Shown: positions 24,582 through 34,614 of the stretch, in pieces | Layout of the letters: every line of letters begins with the position of its first letter | Position numbering within the stretch: position 1 is the first letter of the stretch | Assembly: GCA_002457305.1 (NCBI GenBank) | Contig: NTKG01000006.1 | Location: forward strand, 1 to 40,374 | Length of the DNA: 40,374 nt | Source: Bacteroidetes bacterium MED-G21 | GTDB lineage: Bacteria; Bacteroidota; Bacteroidia; Flavobacteriales; UBA7430 | Direction of reading: 5' to 3' | Notes under the pieces: model-generated | Seen by the model: only the letters and a program-made list of their open reading frames with translations | The model's database searches: none | Told to the model about the DNA's origin: nothing | Program-made: the position numbers and the translations under genes

Positions 24582-24636
24582 ATTATTTGAAACTTATTTT
24601 TATTTGAACTAATTCTAAATAAATATTAAAATTATG

Positions 24637-24667: not shown

Positions 24668-24705
24668 CGCCGTAGTTTAAAATAAGTCTAAATAAAAATT
24701 AAAAA

Positions 24706-26055
24706 ATGAAAATTTTCAAACTAACTTCATTGTTAATTGCTTTTACAACAATTACTTTTATTAGTTCTTGTGATAAAGATGATGATGTAATGGGTTGTAC
24801 TGATCTTGCAGCAACAAATTATAATGCTTCAGCGACTGAAGATGATGGTTCTTGTACGTATGATGCAAGCGCTGCACCAAAAACTTATAACTTCTCTAAT
24901 GCAAGTTATGGTGGTCAGACAGATCGAATTTATATGTTAAAAGAATTAGAGACTTACTTGAAAACAGTAAGCGACGGTGCTGTAATCGATGCAGCAATAG
25001 CAAAATCTATGTATGCTAATGAAGGATACAATTGGACTTCTGATTATTTTGCCACTAATGGTCAGCCAAAAAAGCAACTTAAAAGTAAAACTGCTACTGA
25101 TGATCAAGCTAATATTGAAGCTCTGATTGATGAATTAGCTGCTCTTTCTGCTGCTGCTGTCTCTGATGATGATTTGTATATTGAGTCAGTTTTGGGTAAT
25201 TTTGGAGTAACAAGTTGTTCAGGTGTTATAGGTTACCTTGATACGGAGTATGGTTACTCTCAAGAAGAGTCTTGTTCATGGGATGGCGGAGGTTCACCAA
25301 TGTTTAATTTTGGTGGAATGAGTATTGGTGATTATTGTCCTGCTTCTTGCGATCCTGATGCAGTTACTTTAACTGGTAGTTATATGTTTGATGAAAATGG
25401 ATTTGAGCCAGTACAGTTAATTGTTAAAGGAATCATGGGTTCATGTTTTTACTACCAAGGAACATCTGTTTATTTAAGTCCAGCTAAAATGGATGTTGAA
25501 AATGACTTAGATGCTTTAACAGTTGATACAGATTACACAACCATGCAACATCACTTTGATGAGTCCTTTGATTACTTAGGTGCACCAATCGATATGTCAA
25601 TAGCTAATCCTGACGATGGTAATTATTGGGGTAAATATGCTAAGAAAACTACAGGTGGAGGTTTATCTACAATTGATAATTTAATGCAAGATGGTTTCAT
25701 TGCAGGTCGTCATGCCATAAATAATATGGATTATGATGCTCGTGATCAGGCTATTACTACTATTCAGAATGAATGGGAAATGATTCCTGTAGCTTCAGCA
25801 TTATATTATTTAAATTCTTCAGCTGATGCTATTGCAGATGCTGCTGTTAGAAATCATGCTTTGTCTGAAGCGATTGCATTTATGTCGGCACTTAAATGGA
25901 ATTCTAGATCAAGTGTGATTACTGATCCTTCACAAGTTGATGATATGATCGCTATGTTAGGAGATGATTTAAATCTCATTACTGCTACCGACATTGCAAA
26001 TACAAGAGATGCGCTTGCTGCCGCATATGGCATTACAAATGCTTCAGATTTTTAA
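24706..26055 (+). CDS. DUF4856-family lipoprotein with one N-terminal GCTD...DDGSC repeat
   Basis: Lipobox ...FISSC, MGCTDLAATNYNASATEDDGSC, then YNFSNASYGGQTDRIYMLKELETYLKT. Confidence 0.8.
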   Translation: MKIFKLTSLLIAFTTITFISSCDKDDDVMGCTDLAATNYNASATEDDGSCTYDASAAPKTYNFSNASYGGQTDRIYMLKELETYLKTVSDGAVIDAAIAKSMYANEGYNWTSDYFATNGQPKKQLKSKTATDDQANIEALIDELAALSAAAVSDDDLYIESVLGNFGVTSCSGVIGYLDTEYGYSQEESCSWDGGGSPMFNFGGMSIGDYCPASCDPDAVTLTGSYMFDENGFEPVQLIVKGIMGSCFYYQGTSVYLSPAKMDVENDLDALTVDTDYTTMQHHFDESFDYLGAPIDMSIANPDDGNYWGKYAKKTTGGGLSTIDNLMQDGFIAGRHAINNMDYDARDQAITTIQNEWEMIPVASALYYLNSSADAIADAAVRNHALSEAIAFMSALKWNSRSSVITDPSQVDDMIAMLGDDLNLITATDIANTRDALAAAYGITNASDF

Positions 26056-26108: not shown

Positions 26109-27206
26109 ATGAAAACACTTAAATCATTCACAATTTTTCTTTTAGCTGTTACTTCATTCGTATCCTGTGGTCCAGATGCCATTGAAGAAGTTGAATTTTC
26201 AGATTTGTTTCAGAATGTCGCTGATAATATTATTGTACCTCGCTACAGTAATTTTGATAATGCTCTTTCTGATTTGAATTTAGAGTTAAACAATTTTAAT
26301 AATTCAGAATTATCAAGTCTTGAATCGCTTCAGCAAAAGTTTATTGATACTTATCTTTCTTGGCAGACAGTTTCAGCATTTGAATTTGGCCCTGCAGGTG
26401 AGATAAGCGTTTTGTTAAGATCAAATATTAATAACTTTCCTACCGATGAATCTAGAATAGAGTCTAATATTCAAAATAACGATTACAATTTAGATGTAGC
26501 TTCTAATTACAGTGCTAAAGGACTTCCAGCATTAGACTATATACTTTTTCATGCTTCTCAGGATGAACTTCTAATGGAGCTAGCAGATGAATCTAGAGTA
26601 AATTATATGAAAGACTGTGTTTCTAATATGAAATCTAGAGTAGACTATGTCGTAAATGCTTGGGATGCATATAGAAATGTTTTTGTGGGCTCAGAGGGTA
26701 ATGATCAAAACAGTTCACTGAGCTTGTTTTTTAATTATTTCCTTTATGACTATGAGCAAATTAAGCGAAATAAATTTGCCTTGCCAGCAGGTTTTGCAAC
26801 AGAATATGGTATTCCTATATCTATGGATACGTCCAAAGTAGAAGGGCTTTATAGTGCTACATCTTTGGAATTAATCTCTGCTAATTTAAGAGCATTAGAA
26901 GACCTTTATTTGGGAGTAGGAGAAAATGGTGTTGATGGTATTGGAATTTATGAGATGTTAAAAGAATATAATGCTGTTTCTACAGTTGTGGAAGGGGATT
27001 TATCTGAAGCTATAGCAAATCAGTTTGTTATTTGTAAAGAACTGGTAAATGAATTTTCTAATGATTTACCTTATGAAATTATAAACAATATTTCTCAGGT
27101 TCAAGAAACATCAAATGAACTTCAAAAAATGGTGCCTATGATTAAAAATGACATGCGATCTTATTTTTCTGTCACTGTTACATTAGGCGATTCGGATGGT
27201 GATTAA
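26109..27206 (+). CDS. Imelysin-family lipoprotein (start moved from 26094 to 26109)
   Basis: MKTLKSFTIFLLAVTSFVSC lipobox, WQTVSAFEFGPAGE, GLPALDYILFH. Confidence 0.88.
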   Translation: MKTLKSFTIFLLAVTSFVSCGPDAIEEVEFSDLFQNVADNIIVPRYSNFDNALSDLNLELNNFNNSELSSLESLQQKFIDTYLSWQTVSAFEFGPAGEISVLLRSNINNFPTDESRIESNIQNNDYNLDVASNYSAKGLPALDYILFHASQDELLMELADESRVNYMKDCVSNMKSRVDYVVNAWDAYRNVFVGSEGNDQNSSLSLFFNYFLYDYEQIKRNKFALPAGFATEYGIPISMDTSKVEGLYSATSLELISANLRALEDLYLGVGENGVDGIGIYEMLKEYNAVSTVVEGDLSEAIANQFVICKELVNEFSNDLPYEIINNISQVQETSNELQKMVPMIKNDMRSYFSVTVTLGDSDGD

Positions 27207-28563
27207 TTCAAATTTTAATATTTCAAAAATAAGTCAATGGAGTTATGCTGAAACAAGTATAGCTCCATTGGTTGTTTTTCGTATTATTTTTGGGTTGATG
27301 ATGTTTGTTGGAATTCTTCGTTTTTGGCTTAAAGGCTGGATTCATGATTTCTTTATTCAACCGGATCATTTTTTTCATTACTTCGGGTTTGAATGGGTCA
27401 AACCTATGGGAGAGTTTGGAATGTACACCATATTTGGTCTTTTATTAATCTCTTCATTATCCATAGCTTTAGGGCTTTTTTATAGAGCATCGAGTATTCT
27501 GTTTTTTGTTCTTTTCACCTACGTTGAGCTTATTGATGTTACTAATTATCTAAATCATTATTATTTTATTAGTCTGGTTTCTTTTTTAATGTGTTTTCTG
27601 CCGGCCAATCGTTCTTTCTCTCTAGATATATGGAACAATCATGAAAAGATTCTTAAAAGTATTCCGAATTGGACCATAGGGATTCTTAAATTTCAATTGG
27701 GTTTGGTTTATTTTTTTTCAGGTATTGCCAAGTTAAATTATGACTGGTTGTTTGATGCTATGCCTATGAGTATATGGTTGCAAGCAAAAATGCATTGGCC
27801 AATATTAGGAAGCCTTTTTACCGAAAAATGGATGGCTTACAGCTGTAGTTGGGCAGCTTGTATTTTTGATCTTACAGTCGCCTTTTTTCTTCTTTCTAAG
27901 CGGTATAGACCAATAGCTTATTTTGTTTTGGTGATTTTTCATGTCATTACTGGTTTGATGTTTCCAATTGGGATGTTCCCTTGGATCATGATCTTGGCAA
28001 CATTGATCTTTTTCTCACCAGATTTTCATGAGAAAATTATTGCTTTTATACGTTTGATATTTAATTTGAAACAAGCAACTTCATCAGGCCACAATTCATT
28101 AGCTTTGGCTGGTTTTAAAAAGAAGTTTTTAACAGGCTTTTTATTGACTTATGTGTTCTTTCAAATGCTGTTTCCTTTTCGCTATTTGCTTTATCCTGGA
28201 GATTTGTTTTGGACTGAGCAAGGCTATCGGTTCAGTTGGCGTGTGATGCTGATAGAGAAAGCAGGTACTGCATTTTTTTATGTTACCGATCCTGAGACGG
28301 GAAATAGAGGTGAGGTAAATAATTGTGATTTTTTAACGCCCAATCAAGAAAAAATGATGGCCACACAGCCGGATTTGATTTTGCAGTATGCACACATCAT
28401 AAAAGAAGAGGTTGAATCTAGGGACTTAAAGAATCCTATTATTAATGCAGAGGTCTATGTGACTTTAAATGGTTCTCGAAGTAAACTTTTTATTGATCCA
28501 GAAGTTGATTTAACGACATTACAAGACAATTTTAAACCTAAAGATTGGATCTTAGACAATTAA
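27196..28563 (+). CDS. HTTM-domain membrane protein, vitamin-K-dependent gamma-carboxylase homologue
   Basis: Multiple TMs, YLNHYYFISLVSFLMCFLPANRSFSLD, LGLVYFFSGIAKLNYDWL, and GGCX-like FRYLLYPGDLFWTEQGYRFSWRVMLIEKAG. Confidence 0.88.
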   Translation: MVINSNFNISKISQWSYAETSIAPLVVFRIIFGLMMFVGILRFWLKGWIHDFFIQPDHFFHYFGFEWVKPMGEFGMYTIFGLLLISSLSIALGLFYRASSILFFVLFTYVELIDVTNYLNHYYFISLVSFLMCFLPANRSFSLDIWNNHEKILKSIPNWTIGILKFQLGLVYFFSGIAKLNYDWLFDAMPMSIWLQAKMHWPILGSLFTEKWMAYSCSWAACIFDLTVAFFLLSKRYRPIAYFVLVIFHVITGLMFPIGMFPWIMILATLIFFSPDFHEKIIAFIRLIFNLKQATSSGHNSLALAGFKKKFLTGFLLTYVFFQMLFPFRYLLYPGDLFWTEQGYRFSWRVMLIEKAGTAFFYVTDPETGNRGEVNNCDFLTPNQEKMMATQPDLILQYAHIIKEEVESRDLKNPIINAEVYVTLNGSRSKLFIDPEVDLTTLQDNFKPKDWILDN

Positions 28564-28564
28564 T

Positions 28565-30985
28565 ATGCTCGGATTGAGATCTTTATATATCATCTTATTT
28601 TGTTGCGTTTTTACAGCGCAAGCACAGCATGTATTTAAAGGAGCTGTAGTGGATGCACTAAGCTCAGTTTCCATTCCAAATGCACATGTTAAATTGAATG
28701 ATAGTTATGGTGTTGTGAGTGATGAGAATGGCCGATTTGAACTTTCTGGACTTTCCTCGGGAACTTATCTTTTAGAAGTTTCATGTGTCGGATTTAAAGG
28801 GTTTAAAAAGCAAATTAATTTAACTAAAAAAGTGCTCTATTTTGATGTCGTTTTACAGCCTAATGTATTGGAGCTTTCTCAAGTAGATGTTCTGGGGCAA
28901 AATGAAAGATTGACAAACATCACCCGTCTGCGTTCTATTGAGGGAACGGCGATCTATGCGTCGAAGAAAAATGAAGTCATATTAATGGAGTCCACGTTAG
29001 CAAACAAAGCTACCAATAATTCTCGACAGGTCTATGCTAAAGTTCCTGGATTAAATATCTGGGAGAGTGACGGTTTGGGTCTTCAGCTGGAAATTGGGGC
29101 GCGAGGCTTGAGTCCACATCGCACTTCTAATTTTAACACGCGGCAAAACGGTTATGACATTAGTGCCGATGCCTTGGGTTACCCTGAATCTTACTACACG
29201 CCTCCATCAGAGGCAATTCAAAAGATTGAAATTGTTCGAGGAGCTGCTTCCTTGCAGTACGGAACACAGTTTGGAGGTTTGTTGAATTTTAGACTAAAAA
29301 AAGGTGTAAATAAACCGTTAGAAATTATCGCTAGACAGACTTTAGGTTCCTTCAAATTACAAAATACCTTTGTGAGTTTAGGCGGATCAAAAGGGAAATG
29401 GAATTATTACAGTTTTTATCAAAAAAAATCCAGAAATGGTTGGCGTCCGAATTCAAATTCGGAGGCTCAAACGGCATTTTCATCTGTTCAATATCAGGCT
29501 AATGACCACTTAGGTTTTGGCTTAGAATTTACGCATATGGATTATCTAGCGCAGCAACCTGGAGGGCTTGATGATGCTACTTTTTTATCGAAACCAGATA
29601 CCTCATTACGAGCTAGAAATTGGTTTCGAGTTAACTGGAATATAGCTGCGTTTACTGTGGACTATAAATTCAATGAAAGAACTAAATTAAATTCCAGAAC
29701 ATTTGGGCTTTGGTCAAGCCGAGATGCTTTGGGTGTTTTAGATCATATTGATTGGCCGGAAACAGGACAACAACGTGATTTGTTACTTGCTAAATTTAAT
29801 AATTTTGGTAATGAAACAAGGCTTATACGTCGCTATTTAATAGGTGAATCAGAATCCGTTTTTTTGGGAGGCATTCGATGGTATCGAGGGTTCACTGTTA
29901 AAGAACAAGGACTGGCTGACTCTGGTTCAAATGCAAATTTTTCTTTTGAAAATAAACTAGATCATTACGGTTCATATTTTGAGTTTCCGAGCCTAAATAA
30001 GGCTGTTTTTGTAGAAAATTTAGTGCGTGTAAACGATTGTATTTCTATAACGCCAGGCTTCAGGTACGATCGAATTGTAACCGAGTCTGATGGTTTTTTT
30101 CATGCTTTGGTTAACGACAGTTTGTATTACACAAACAACTGCAAAAAGTTAGAGAGAGGTATTTTTCTTGCTGGATTAGGTGCCAGTTATAAATGCTTTG
30201 TAGGAGGTGAAACATATGCCAATTTTTCTCAAAATTACAGAGCCATAAATTTTAACGACATGCAGGTGATTAATTCTAATATTGTGATTGATCCTGATCT
30301 TGAAGACGAGAAAGGTTTTAACATAGACTTGGGTTTAAGAGGAATGGCATGGGGTGTATTAGAATATGATTTAAGTGTCTTTTATTTAAATTATTCCAAT
30401 CGAATAGCGTATTTGTCGAAATATTATACAGAAGACACAGCACCTACACCTGGACTTTTATATACAAGTTACCGATTTAGTACCAATATTGGCGATTCTA
30501 AAACTTTGGGAATTGAATCGTATGTGTCATGGAATGTCTTTAAATCTTTCACTGACATTGAAACACAAGCTTTAAATCTCTTTTTGAATACATCATTTCA
30601 GAAAGGTACTTATGTGCGGTCTGATGAGCCTTCGATTAAAGGAAAAAGATTAGAGTACAATCCAGATATGAATTTAAAATTTGGGCTACAATACCAATAC
30701 AAAAGTTTTGCGAGTTCTTTGCTCTATTCGTATACGAGTAGTCAATTTGCAGATGCACAAAATACCATAAGTCCTACTCAAAATGCCTTGTTTGGTGAAA
30801 TACCTTCTTATTCAGTACTCGATTTGTCTACCAAGTATGAAAAAGAGCGTTTTATAATTGAAGCAGGGGTTAATAATTTACTCGACCGTTCTTATTTTAC
30901 TCGCCGAGCAACAGGGTATCCGGGCCCTGGAATTATACCTTCGGATAAAAGGAATTATTATTTAAGTTTACAATTCAAAATATAA
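28565..30985 (+). CDS. TonB-dependent outer-membrane receptor (FecA-like) with N-terminal carboxypeptidase-regulatory-like domain
   Basis: FKGAVVDALSSVSIPNAHVKLNDSYGVVSDENGRFELSGL; plug region ARGLSPHRTSNFNTRQNGYDISADALGYPESYYTPP...IEIVRGAASLQYGTQFGGLLNF; C-terminal NYYLSLQFKI. Confidence 0.93.
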   Translation: MLGLRSLYIILFCCVFTAQAQHVFKGAVVDALSSVSIPNAHVKLNDSYGVVSDENGRFELSGLSSGTYLLEVSCVGFKGFKKQINLTKKVLYFDVVLQPNVLELSQVDVLGQNERLTNITRLRSIEGTAIYASKKNEVILMESTLANKATNNSRQVYAKVPGLNIWESDGLGLQLEIGARGLSPHRTSNFNTRQNGYDISADALGYPESYYTPPSEAIQKIEIVRGAASLQYGTQFGGLLNFRLKKGVNKPLEIIARQTLGSFKLQNTFVSLGGSKGKWNYYSFYQKKSRNGWRPNSNSEAQTAFSSVQYQANDHLGFGLEFTHMDYLAQQPGGLDDATFLSKPDTSLRARNWFRVNWNIAAFTVDYKFNERTKLNSRTFGLWSSRDALGVLDHIDWPETGQQRDLLLAKFNNFGNETRLIRRYLIGESESVFLGGIRWYRGFTVKEQGLADSGSNANFSFENKLDHYGSYFEFPSLNKAVFVENLVRVNDCISITPGFRYDRIVTESDGFFHALVNDSLYYTNNCKKLERGIFLAGLGASYKCFVGGETYANFSQNYRAINFNDMQVINSNIVIDPDLEDEKGFNIDLGLRGMAWGVLEYDLSVFYLNYSNRIAYLSKYYTEDTAPTPGLLYTSYRFSTNIGDSKTLGIESYVSWNVFKSFTDIETQALNLFLNTSFQKGTYVRSDEPSIKGKRLEYNPDMNLKFGLQYQYKSFASSLLYSYTSSQFADAQNTISPTQNALFGEIPSYSVLDLSTKYEKERFIIEAGVNNLLDRSYFTRRATGYPGPGIIPSDKRNYYLSLQFKI

Positions 30986-31053: not shown

Positions 31054-32082
31054 ATGAAAAAGTTAATTTACATAACAGCTGTCATTCTATTATTTAGCAG
31101 CTGTTCTAATAACACAAAAACATCAAATGAAGTTAATCTTTACAGTCAGCGTCATTATGATGTAGATAAGATGCTTTTTGAGCGATTTGAAGAGCTTACG
31201 GGAGTAAAGGTGAATGTAGTTAAAGCCAATGCTGATGAGCTGCTAGAGCGTTTAAAAAATGAAGGCGAAAATAGCCCTGCGGATTTATTTGTTTCAGTAG
31301 ACGCAGGAAAACTTCATAAAGCAACTGAGCTTGGCCTACTACAAAAAATATCTAATTCATCTATTTTAGACAATATTTCTGATGATTTGGAAGATAAGAA
31401 TGGTTATTGGGTTCCTATGACTTACAGATCGAGAATTTTAGTTTATAGTAAAGAAAGGGTAAAAGCCAATGAATTATCTACTTATAGTGATTTGATTGAT
31501 GAAAAGTGGAAGAATCGAATTTTAGTGCGCTCTTCTTCCAATGCATATAACCAAGCCTTATTGTCTTCTATAGTAGCTAATAAAGGTTCTGAAGCGGCTT
31601 CTGAATGGGCAAGTAAATTGGTTTCTAATTTCGCTAGAGACCCTAAAGGAAGTGATCGAGATCAAGTTAAAGCTATCGCGGCAGGGCAAGGTGATGTAGC
31701 TATTGTGAATTCCTATTATATTGGTCTGTTATTAAGTTCGGATGATGAAGAGCAATTTAAAGCTGGGGAGGCTGTAGGTGTATTTTTCCCAAATCAAGGA
31801 GAGGGTGAAAGTGGGGCTCATATCAATATTTCGGGTATTGGTTTAACACAGCATGCTAAAAATAAAGAAAATGCACTTAAACTTATTGAGTTTTTAACTG
31901 GTGTTGAGGCACAAACAACTTATTCAAACACGAGTTTTGAATATGCGGTTAATCCTAATGCTAAACACTCTGATATTGTTAGTATTTGGGGAGATTTTAG
32001 AAGAGATACATTGGATTTAAATCTTCTAGGTGTTCATCGTGCTAAAGCAATTGAGATTTTTGATAATTCGGGTTGGAAGTAA
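31054..32082 (+). CDS. Fe(3+) ABC transporter substrate-binding lipoprotein (FutA/IdiA/FbpA-like)
   Basis: Lipobox LLFSSC; NLYSQRHYDVDKMLFERFEELTGVKVNVVKANADELLERLKNEGENSPADLFVSVDAGKL. Confidence 0.92.
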   Translation: MKKLIYITAVILLFSSCSNNTKTSNEVNLYSQRHYDVDKMLFERFEELTGVKVNVVKANADELLERLKNEGENSPADLFVSVDAGKLHKATELGLLQKISNSSILDNISDDLEDKNGYWVPMTYRSRILVYSKERVKANELSTYSDLIDEKWKNRILVRSSSNAYNQALLSSIVANKGSEAASEWASKLVSNFARDPKGSDRDQVKAIAAGQGDVAIVNSYYIGLLLSSDDEEQFKAGEAVGVFFPNQGEGESGAHINISGIGLTQHAKNKENALKLIEFLTGVEAQTTYSNTSFEYAVNPNAKHSDIVSIWGDFRRDTLDLNLLGVHRAKAIEIFDNSGWK

Positions 32083-33695
32083 GACGTAAATTTGTTCAAA
32101 TTGAACATAAGAAGTGGGTTTTAGCAAGCTTAATCGTAGGCTTGCTATTACTACTTCCTATGTTTTTTTTATTTACCAAGCTTTTTCAGGTCCCTAGTTT
32201 TGACTTTTTTTATTTGTGGGACACGCTTTTGCTTGATTACAGTTTCAATACTTTTTATCTGATTTTAATTACAAGTGTATTTGCCATTATTTTTGGTGTT
32301 ATGCCCGCTTGGTTTGTAAGTAATTATGATTTTAAATTTCGAAACTTTTTCGATTTAGTGCTGTATTTACCTTTGGCCATTCCAACGTATATCATGTCAT
32401 TTACATACAGTGATTTATTGAGTTATACGGGCCCTTTACAGTTCTTTTTAAGAAAAAACTTACCTGATGTTGCACCTTATTTTAATAACGATTATTTGCA
32501 AATTGAAGTGTTGGGTGTTCTTTTAGGATTAGCTTTGTATCCATATGTTTATACGGCATTAAGAGTTTCATTTAGTTTGATAGGTTCATCTTATATTGAT
32601 GTCGCTAAAAATTTAGGTCTTTCTGATGTGAAAATGTTTTTTAAAGTTGTTTTACCACTTTCTAAACCCGCTTTATTTTCAGGTCTTTTTTTAGTAGTTA
32701 TGGAAGTTTTAAATGAATACGGTGCTGTAAAGTATTTTGGAGTGAATACTTATACTGCTGGTATATTTAGAGCTTGGTTTTCTATGGGTAGTGAAAATAC
32801 AGCCATTCAGCTTGCATGCCTGTTGATTTTATTGGTTGGATTTATTTTAATTCTTGAGCGAATGACTCAAAAGCAGTCTAAATTTTATTACCAAACCAAC
32901 ACCAAACAAAAGCCTTTAACAATACCTAAATTATCAACTCGATTTGCCATTTACATGAGTTGTTCTGTGCCTTTCTTTCTTGGGTTTCTAATTCCTTTAA
33001 TTTACATATTAAACAACAGTATACAGCAGTTTATGATGGTCGATTTCAGTCGTTTATTTACTCTCAGTTTTAATTCAATTAAAGTCTCGTTTATCGCTTC
33101 AGTATTCATCATATTAATAGCTTTATTCTTTTTGTATGTTGAGAAAATTTCGAAACTTAAGCTCAATACCACAATAACTAATATAACTTCCTTGGGTTAT
33201 GTGATACCTGGAGCAGTGATTGGTTTGGCTGTTATTCTTCTTTTTACACAATTCCCATTATTTAATAATCATTTGCTCGTTGGATCATTTTTCGTTCTAA
33301 TATATGCATATGTTTTTCGCTTTTTAGCTGTGGGTAAGTCGCCTATAAAATCTAGTTTAGATAAGCAGCCGAAAGCCTTTGAAGATACCTCAAAGGTGTT
33401 GGGTGTAAGTTCTTTTAAGGCTCTAAGAACCATTCATTTGCCATTAAATAAAATGGCCTTAGTTATCGCTTTTATTGTTACTTTTATTGATCTTTTAAAA
33501 GAGCTTCCTATTACTTTAATTTTAAGACCTTTTAATTTCGATACCTTAGCAACACAGACCTATGAATTTGCTGTAGAAGAAATGCTTAAAGCATCCAGCA
33601 TCTATTCTTTAATGATTATTGTTATCGGAAGTGTTTTGTTAATTTTACTTAAGTATATTACAAACAAACAAATACATGCATTTAGAAGTTTCTAA
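32073..33695 (+). CDS. Iron ABC transporter permease (FbpB/FutB-like, duplicated permease domain)
   Basis: About 12 TM helices, two EAA-like loops (DVAKNLGLSDVKMFFKVVLPLSKPAL; DTSKVLGVSSFKALRTIHLPLNK). Confidence 0.93.
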   Translation: MEVRRKFVQIEHKKWVLASLIVGLLLLLPMFFLFTKLFQVPSFDFFYLWDTLLLDYSFNTFYLILITSVFAIIFGVMPAWFVSNYDFKFRNFFDLVLYLPLAIPTYIMSFTYSDLLSYTGPLQFFLRKNLPDVAPYFNNDYLQIEVLGVLLGLALYPYVYTALRVSFSLIGSSYIDVAKNLGLSDVKMFFKVVLPLSKPALFSGLFLVVMEVLNEYGAVKYFGVNTYTAGIFRAWFSMGSENTAIQLACLLILLVGFILILERMTQKQSKFYYQTNTKQKPLTIPKLSTRFAIYMSCSVPFFLGFLIPLIYILNNSIQQFMMVDFSRLFTLSFNSIKVSFIASVFIILIALFFLYVEKISKLKLNTTITNITSLGYVIPGAVIGLAVILLFTQFPLFNNHLLVGSFFVLIYAYVFRFLAVGKSPIKSSLDKQPKAFEDTSKVLGVSSFKALRTIHLPLNKMALVIAFIVTFIDLLKELPITLILRPFNFDTLATQTYEFAVEEMLKASSIYSLMIIVIGSVLLILLKYITNKQIHAFRSF

Positions 33696-34614
33696 TCTAA
33701 CTAAATATTACAGTAAGTCTTCACCGGTAATTCAATCCATTGATTTTAGTGTAGGTAAAGGGGAGATAATTTCTTTTATTGGCGATAGTGGGGAGGGTAA
33801 GACAACGTTTCTGAAGTGTATTTCTGGTCTGGAAAAAATAAATTCTGGTCGAATTGTACTTAATGATAGGGTACTTAATGATCATGATACATTTGTTAAA
33901 GCCCAGGATCGGAAAATAGGTTTCGTTTTTCAGAATTCACCGTTATTCCCTCATCTTAATGTAAAAGATAATGTGCTTTTTAATTTAGAACACATAGATT
34001 CAGATAAGGTTAATGATATATTAGAATTAACTAAGTTGACACTCTTGCTCAATAGGTATCCACATCAACTATCTGGTGGAGAGCAGCAAAGAGCTTGTAT
34101 TGCTCGTGCATTAGTTCGTGAGCCAGATTTGTTATTACTCGATGAGCCATTTAGTAATCTTCATTCGGAAATTAAGAATGCCATTCGAGATGAGATTTAT
34201 AGAATTATTAAAGCCACAAATACAACGACTATATTAGTGACTCATGATGTTAGTGACTCTCTTCATATTTCAGATAAAATTTTAGTATTTAAATCAGGAG
34301 TCATTCAGCAATACGATACACCATTTCATCTTTACAATGAGCCAAGTAATTATTATTGTGCCAAGATATTAGGGTCTATAAATAAGTACTATGCTGATAA
34401 TAAAACTTTTTATATTCGTCCTGAAAATATAAATATTGTTGCTAAATCTATACATAAGTTAACAGTAGAATCGTCTCATTTTAAGGGTAAAGAGTATCAA
34501 ATTACAGCAAAGTATCAAGATGAATCATGGACATTGTATAGTCCTTTACCTTATAAGCTTCAGGATGTTATTTATGTTGATTTTGATGAAGAAAAATGTA
34601 TCGATCTTTGTTAA
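33676..34614 (+). CDS. Iron ABC transporter ATP-binding protein (FbpC/FutC-like)
   Basis: GDSGEGKTT Walker A, LSGGEQQRACIARAL signature, LLLDEPFSNL Walker B. Confidence 0.94.
   Translation: MHLEVSNLTKYYSKSSPVIQSIDFSVGKGEIISFIGDSGEGKTTFLKCISGLEKINSGRIVLNDRVLNDHDTFVKAQDRKIGFVFQNSPLFPHLNVKDNVLFNLEHIDSDKVNDILELTKLTLLLNRYPHQLSGGEQQRACIARALVREPDLLLLDEPFSNLHSEIKNAIRDEIYRIIKATNTTTILVTHDVSDSLHISDKILVFKSGVIQQYDTPFHLYNEPSNYYCAKILGSINKYYADNKTFYIRPENINIVAKSIHKLTVESSHFKGKEYQITAKYQDESWTLYSPLPYKLQDVIYVDFDEEKCIDLC

Follow-up and report, generated by a model that had tools for sequence, protein, structure and literature searches.

To our knowledge, no physiological substrate is known for any bacterial vitamin K-dependent carboxylase (VKGC). 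Leptospira carries one of the bacterial homologues, and a 2005 report by Rishavy is said to describe an altered activity of this protein, suggesting a role other than carboxylation. Leptospira also possesses an iron-regulated operon with the order imelysin, di-haem oxidoreductase (DHOR), imelysin. A related arrangement in Proteobacteria runs ICMP, di-haem oxidoreductase, IPPA and then DUF1513. This IPPA operon functions in Fur-regulated iron uptake, and its imelysin family has PDB entry 3pf0 as structural type (PMC3143127). In Riemerella anatipestifer, the gene table of PMC5609570 lists RAYM_09779-09794 among the Fur-regulated genes as a TonB receptor, a vitamin K-dependent gamma-carboxylase, an imelysin and a hypothetical protein. 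This gene content matches that of the locus studied here, the fourth gene being annotated there as hypothetical. Beyond the Riemerella table, no description of a VKGC-imelysin pairing was found in the limited collection of literature that we searched.

The window analysed here is a stretch of 40,374 nucleotides from Bacteroidetes bacterium MED-G21. Its iron-type operon, already recognised as such in the initial annotation, comprises Fur-box-like sites, an imelysin, a TonB receptor and a downstream ABC importer, and the gene order DUF4856-imelysin-VKGC-TonB receptor was confirmed (Table 1).

Table 1. Coordinates of the VKGC operon and of its features in the window.
Feature	Position	Strand	Details
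Fur-box-like site 1	24602..24620	-	ATTTAGAATTAGTTCAAAT; 3 mismatches to Riemerella Fur 19-mer (PMC5609570)
Fur-box-like site 2	24675..24693	-	ATTTAGACTTATTTTAAAC; 3 mismatches to Riemerella Fur 19-mer (PMC5609570)
DUF4856 lipoprotein (Cys22)	24706..26055	+	GCTD..DDGSC stretch behind lipobox; Pfam PF16148 E 8e-34
Imelysin (Peptidase_M75) lipoprotein (Cys20), IPPA type	26109..27206	+	Pfam E 3e-26
Imelysin C-terminal DSDGD tail, aa 361-365	27189..27203	+	disordered in model, pLDDT 45
VKGC (GGCX homologue)	27196..28563	+	455 aa; ATG start, TAA stop
HTTM transmembrane domain, VKGC aa 17-276	27244..28023	+	Pfam PF05090 E 2.7e-80
VKGC N120-H121	27553..27558	+	= GGCX N159-H160, Glu-pocket residues; invariant 96/96 VKGCs
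VKGC K179	27730..27732	+	= GGCX K218, catalytic base; invariant 96/96 VKGCs
VKGC lumenal domain, presumably periplasmic here, aa 309-454	28120..28557	+	Pfam PF22777 (VKGC_lumenal_dom) E 2e-54
TonB-dependent receptor, carboxypeptidase-regulatory-like N-terminus	28565..30985	+	
ABC importer, whole	31054..34614	+	68 bp behind TonB receptor
ABC importer, binding protein	31054-32082	+	
ABC importer, fused permease	32073-33695	+	
ABC importer, ATPase	33676-34614	+	

There is strong evidence that the product of 27196-28563 is a true member of the VKGC/GGCX family, and apparently a working one. The HTTM and lumenal domains score 270 and 184 bits, respectively, against curated Pfam cut-offs of 27.7. 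The only sequence match in the PDB is human GGCX (VKGC 20-451 vs GGCX 59-501, E 5e-42, 24% identity). An AlphaFold2 model of the protein (pLDDT 94.8) returned GGCX entries, which include 9bur, 9bvk and 9wfc, as all of its 16 best Foldseek matches, with a TM-score of up to 0.86 (by query). The GGCX-like segment FRYLLYPGDLFWTEQGYRFSWRVMLIEKAG pointed out earlier is indeed present and aligns with the TM9/linker region of GGCX. The description "full-length" suits the bacterial form only, as the match ends at residue 501 of 758 and the C-terminal ~250 amino acids of GGCX, with the second half of the propeptide-binding domain (PBD-2) and the arch, are missing.

Active-site positions were mapped through an alignment of the VKGC with GGCX, with the residues and their human roles (including those of N159-H160) taken from a cryo-EM study of GGCX (PMC12589487). 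The catalytic Lys, which the initial annotation had proposed to inspect, and the other catalytic residues are retained. Besides the residues in Table 1, the aromatic residues W184, F248, F256, F261 and W348 correspond to GGCX W223, F286, F294, F299 and W399, and Y344, S347 and M351 correspond to Y395, S398 and M402. Among 96 full-length VKGCs, N120, H121, K179, F248, F261 and W348 show no variation. By contrast, the features that set animal-type GGCX apart (complete propeptide-binding and arch domains, K217 and Y425) are not present in this protein. The position of K217, which couples substrate binding in GGCX (PMC12589487), is Ala in 91 of the 96 VKGCs including this one, and Y425 of the propeptide exosite is replaced by Val. 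Substrate recognition would therefore differ from that of GGCX. Three further residues of GGCX, N158, N290 and M401, are Leu, Thr and Val in the clade of imelysin-associated VKGCs to which this protein belongs. The chemistry thus looks intact in view of the invariant catalytic set, but recognition and pocket look remodelled.

N158, N290 and M401 are kept in a second VKGC clade (L146-L149, L151-L156), whose genes lie after a ribF-like gene and mostly before a serS-like gene, both named by inspection of their sequences. No obvious exported partner was seen there.

The genes of the operon are tightly packed, in agreement with the initial annotation. The VKGC gene opens at 27196, within the imelysin gene that ends at 27206, an overlap of 11 nt, and its own stop lies 1 nt before the ATG of the TonB receptor at 28565. 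Scored with the Riemerella Fur 19-mer as consensus (PMC5609570), the whole window contains three matches vs 0.25 expected. Two of these sequence-predicted sites fall in the 124-bp gap before DUF4856, and comparable boxes precede DUF4856 in 30 of 43 upstream regions of relatives. With its two predicted promoter sites the operon qualifies as putatively Fur-regulated. The ABC importer is not found at the matching position in related loci, and its substrate-family scores are below all curated cut-offs.

The exported protein to which the VKGC is tightly and widely linked is the imelysin of the iron operon. An imelysin adjoins the VKGC or lies one gene off in 75 of the 80 related loci compared, which span about seven phyla. 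Going by their labels, the loci belong to Bacteroidota, Chloroflexota, Myxococcota, Verrucomicrobiota, SAR324, Thermoanaerobaculia and Trueperaceae; as many stem from metagenome-assembled genomes, individual placements may err. Three of the five loci with no neighbouring imelysin begin at or near a contig edge. The other two, L032 and L062, do not, and their genomes encode an IPPA-type imelysin elsewhere. One layout is that of the present locus, and in another a GxHxxE imelysin, a DHOR, an imelysin and the VKGC follow each other. In L043, L044, L048 and L053 the VKGC and imelysin genes are convergent. Imelysin and VKGC are constant across the loci, whereas DUF4856 and the TonB receptor vary. 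DUF4856, once considered as a possible substrate, is thus not the general partner, being absent from the loci examined in Chloroflexota, Verrucomicrobiota, SAR324 and Deinococcota, which retain imelysin.

The pairing extends to whole genomes. A full-length VKGC occurs in 57 of 248 Bacteroidota genomes. Imelysins that match the partner profile to its end were found in 49 of the 248, all of which have a VKGC (49/49), and in none of the 191 genomes with no VKGC, counts that ignore phylogeny. A tree of VKGCs groups those accompanied by imelysin in a single clade (SH-aLRT 97) and separates them from the others. The genomic pairing of VKGC with IPPA imelysin is therefore strongly supported, and the adjacency in about seven phyla suggests that imelysin is the likely client. 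Four VKGC copies lie on plasmids; a search of viral contigs and phages found none.

Just upstream of VKGCs of a third clade, two lipoprotein genes (L158:5207-5929 and L159:5220-5933) encode products ending in poly-Asp (11-13 D). We considered them as independent proof of a VKGC client, a use that is weakened by relatives with Asp-rich tails, which are widespread in the family and also occur away from VKGC.

The partner imelysin differs from canonical members of its family. Its model (pLDDT 92.8) has 3pf0 as the best fold match, and the His of the GxHxxE motif is replaced by Pro (G138-L-P140-A-L-D143). This His is found in 0 of 101 VKGC-associated imelysins vs 34 of 34 other aligned imelysins. 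Conservation is high in the C-terminal tail, where D365 is present in 101/101, D363 in 100/101 and D361 in 94/101 of the VKGC-associated proteins. The eight closest imelysins from genomes with no VKGC keep GxHxxE and have no such tail. The Asp/Glu content of the imelysin is not distinctive.

The tail appeared at first sight as a VKGC-specific tag, and in the 248 Bacteroidota genomes this held, but a control with structure 3pf0 (ending TDGD) and 10 Proteobacterial IPPA relatives broke it. The latter likewise lack the GxHxxE His and end in DGD, with no VKGC near. The gene after IPPA encodes DUF1513 in seven of these 10 loci; two records carry no annotation at that place, and one has neither DUF1513 nor VKGC. 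DUF1513 was not found in any VKGC locus. We therefore take DGD as a mark of IPPA imelysins, with VKGC and DUF1513 as alternative companions. Only the Asp at -5 (D361), which distinguishes DxDGD from xDGD, stays associated with VKGC (93 of 101 vs 0 of 10 in the Proteobacterial set), and this only suggestively because lineage may confound the comparison. Conservation merely through the overlapping VKGC start codon is ruled out, as the tail persists in convergent and spaced loci. Nor does it seem to be a general sorting tag, since additional DxDGD-stop matches in proteins other than imelysin are about as frequent as background (36 genomes with and 36 without VKGC, counted by eye). In L261-L264, L268, L269 and L271, the Proteobacterial loci with DUF1513 after IPPA, the slot of the VKGC is occupied by this unrelated protein.

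The results lend no support to a vitamin K cycle of the vertebrate kind. VKOR, for which co-occurrence with VKGC had been anticipated, shows no association with it (12 of 57 genomes with VKGC vs 47 of the 191 others), so that epoxide would have to be recycled by other means. VKOR was not found in this genome, which is 72.6% complete. MenB-like matches are below the cut-off, and MenD was not found in this genome or a congener, both about 71-73% complete. In L092, L093 and L193, DCC1-like thiol-disulfide (DUF393) genes are transcribed divergently from the VKGC and might supply reductant in the absence of VKOR.

On this sequence evidence we lean, with modest confidence, towards a menaquinol-dependent carboxylase that would modify its partner IPPA imelysin in iron uptake. 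Carboxylation by this VKGC is plausible. The initial annotation had favoured Gla formation on Glu of an exported partner, and the retention of all catalytic residues suits a metal site of this kind, whether on imelysin, on DUF4856 or on a further lipoprotein encoded with them. Candidate residues are E245 (93/101) and E216 (89/101) of imelysin and the conserved E234, E286 and E388 of DUF4856. Yet no Glu of the VKGC-linked imelysin is invariant, E245 is just as conserved in the GxHxxE imelysins of genomes that lack VKGC (8/8), and both E245 and E216 sit in well-ordered regions of the model. Many VKGC loci have no DUF4856, and the Leu, Thr and Val replacements of this clade affect residues that the ribF-serS group keeps. 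Classic Gla formation thus appears unlikely, if worth keeping in mind. A more specific form of the carboxylase reading is that Asp of the DxDGD tail would become beta-carboxyaspartate and supply a chelating metal site to an imelysin devoid of the His of its family; in Proteobacteria, DUF1513 would act on this tail through other chemistry. In its favour, few residues of imelysin are as well conserved as the tail Asp, the additional Asp at -5 accompanies VKGC but is missing from the Proteobacterial set, and the three substrate/quinone-pocket positions are changed solely in this VKGC clade. A literature search on beta-carboxyaspartate returned nothing relevant, and we regard this version as rather improbable.

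The VKGC might also have been repurposed to use quinol and O2 for epoxidation or another oxidation, or for quinone chemistry such as ferric reduction, with no carboxylation of protein. Such a change would fit a protein that keeps the K218-type base and the quinone pocket and has lost the C-terminal ~250 amino acids along with K217 and the propeptide exosite. It would also fit the DHOR co-encoded in the second layout, the DUF1513 in the VKGC slot of Proteobacteria and the activity reported for Leptospira. The N159-H160 pair, which holds the substrate Glu in GGCX, would however have no obvious use if there were no carboxylate substrate, and it is invariant in 96/96 VKGCs; we consider repurposing doubtful. 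That VKGC and imelysin are neighbours merely through an old iron operon, the client being elsewhere in the cell, is less probable still, and we judge it very unlikely. Two other VKGC clades do manage with no imelysin, one flanked by ribF-like and serS-like genes in Flavobacteriaceae-type genomes and the other beside poly-Asp lipoproteins, but the coupling in Bacteroidota is genome-wide (49/49) and the adjacency survives across phyla while other operon genes change.

For the favoured carboxylase of imelysin, the following scheme is proposed. Iron starvation would relieve Fur repression and the operon would be expressed. The VKGC would be an inner-membrane enzyme whose active site faces the periplasm and, driven by menaquinol, O2 and CO2, would modify carboxylate side chains of imelysin during export. 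Together with the TonB receptor, the modified imelysin would then take part in acquiring iron. Among the candidate residues, those of the flexible, Asp-rich DxDGD C-terminus are the easiest to reach and the best conserved, and Glu elsewhere in imelysin might serve as well. The genomic partner of this VKGC is imelysin and not a Gla protein as for human GGCX, and a partner kept across phyla narrows the question of what bacterial GGCX homologues do to one protein. If the proposal is true, vitamin K chemistry would be linked to bacterial iron uptake.
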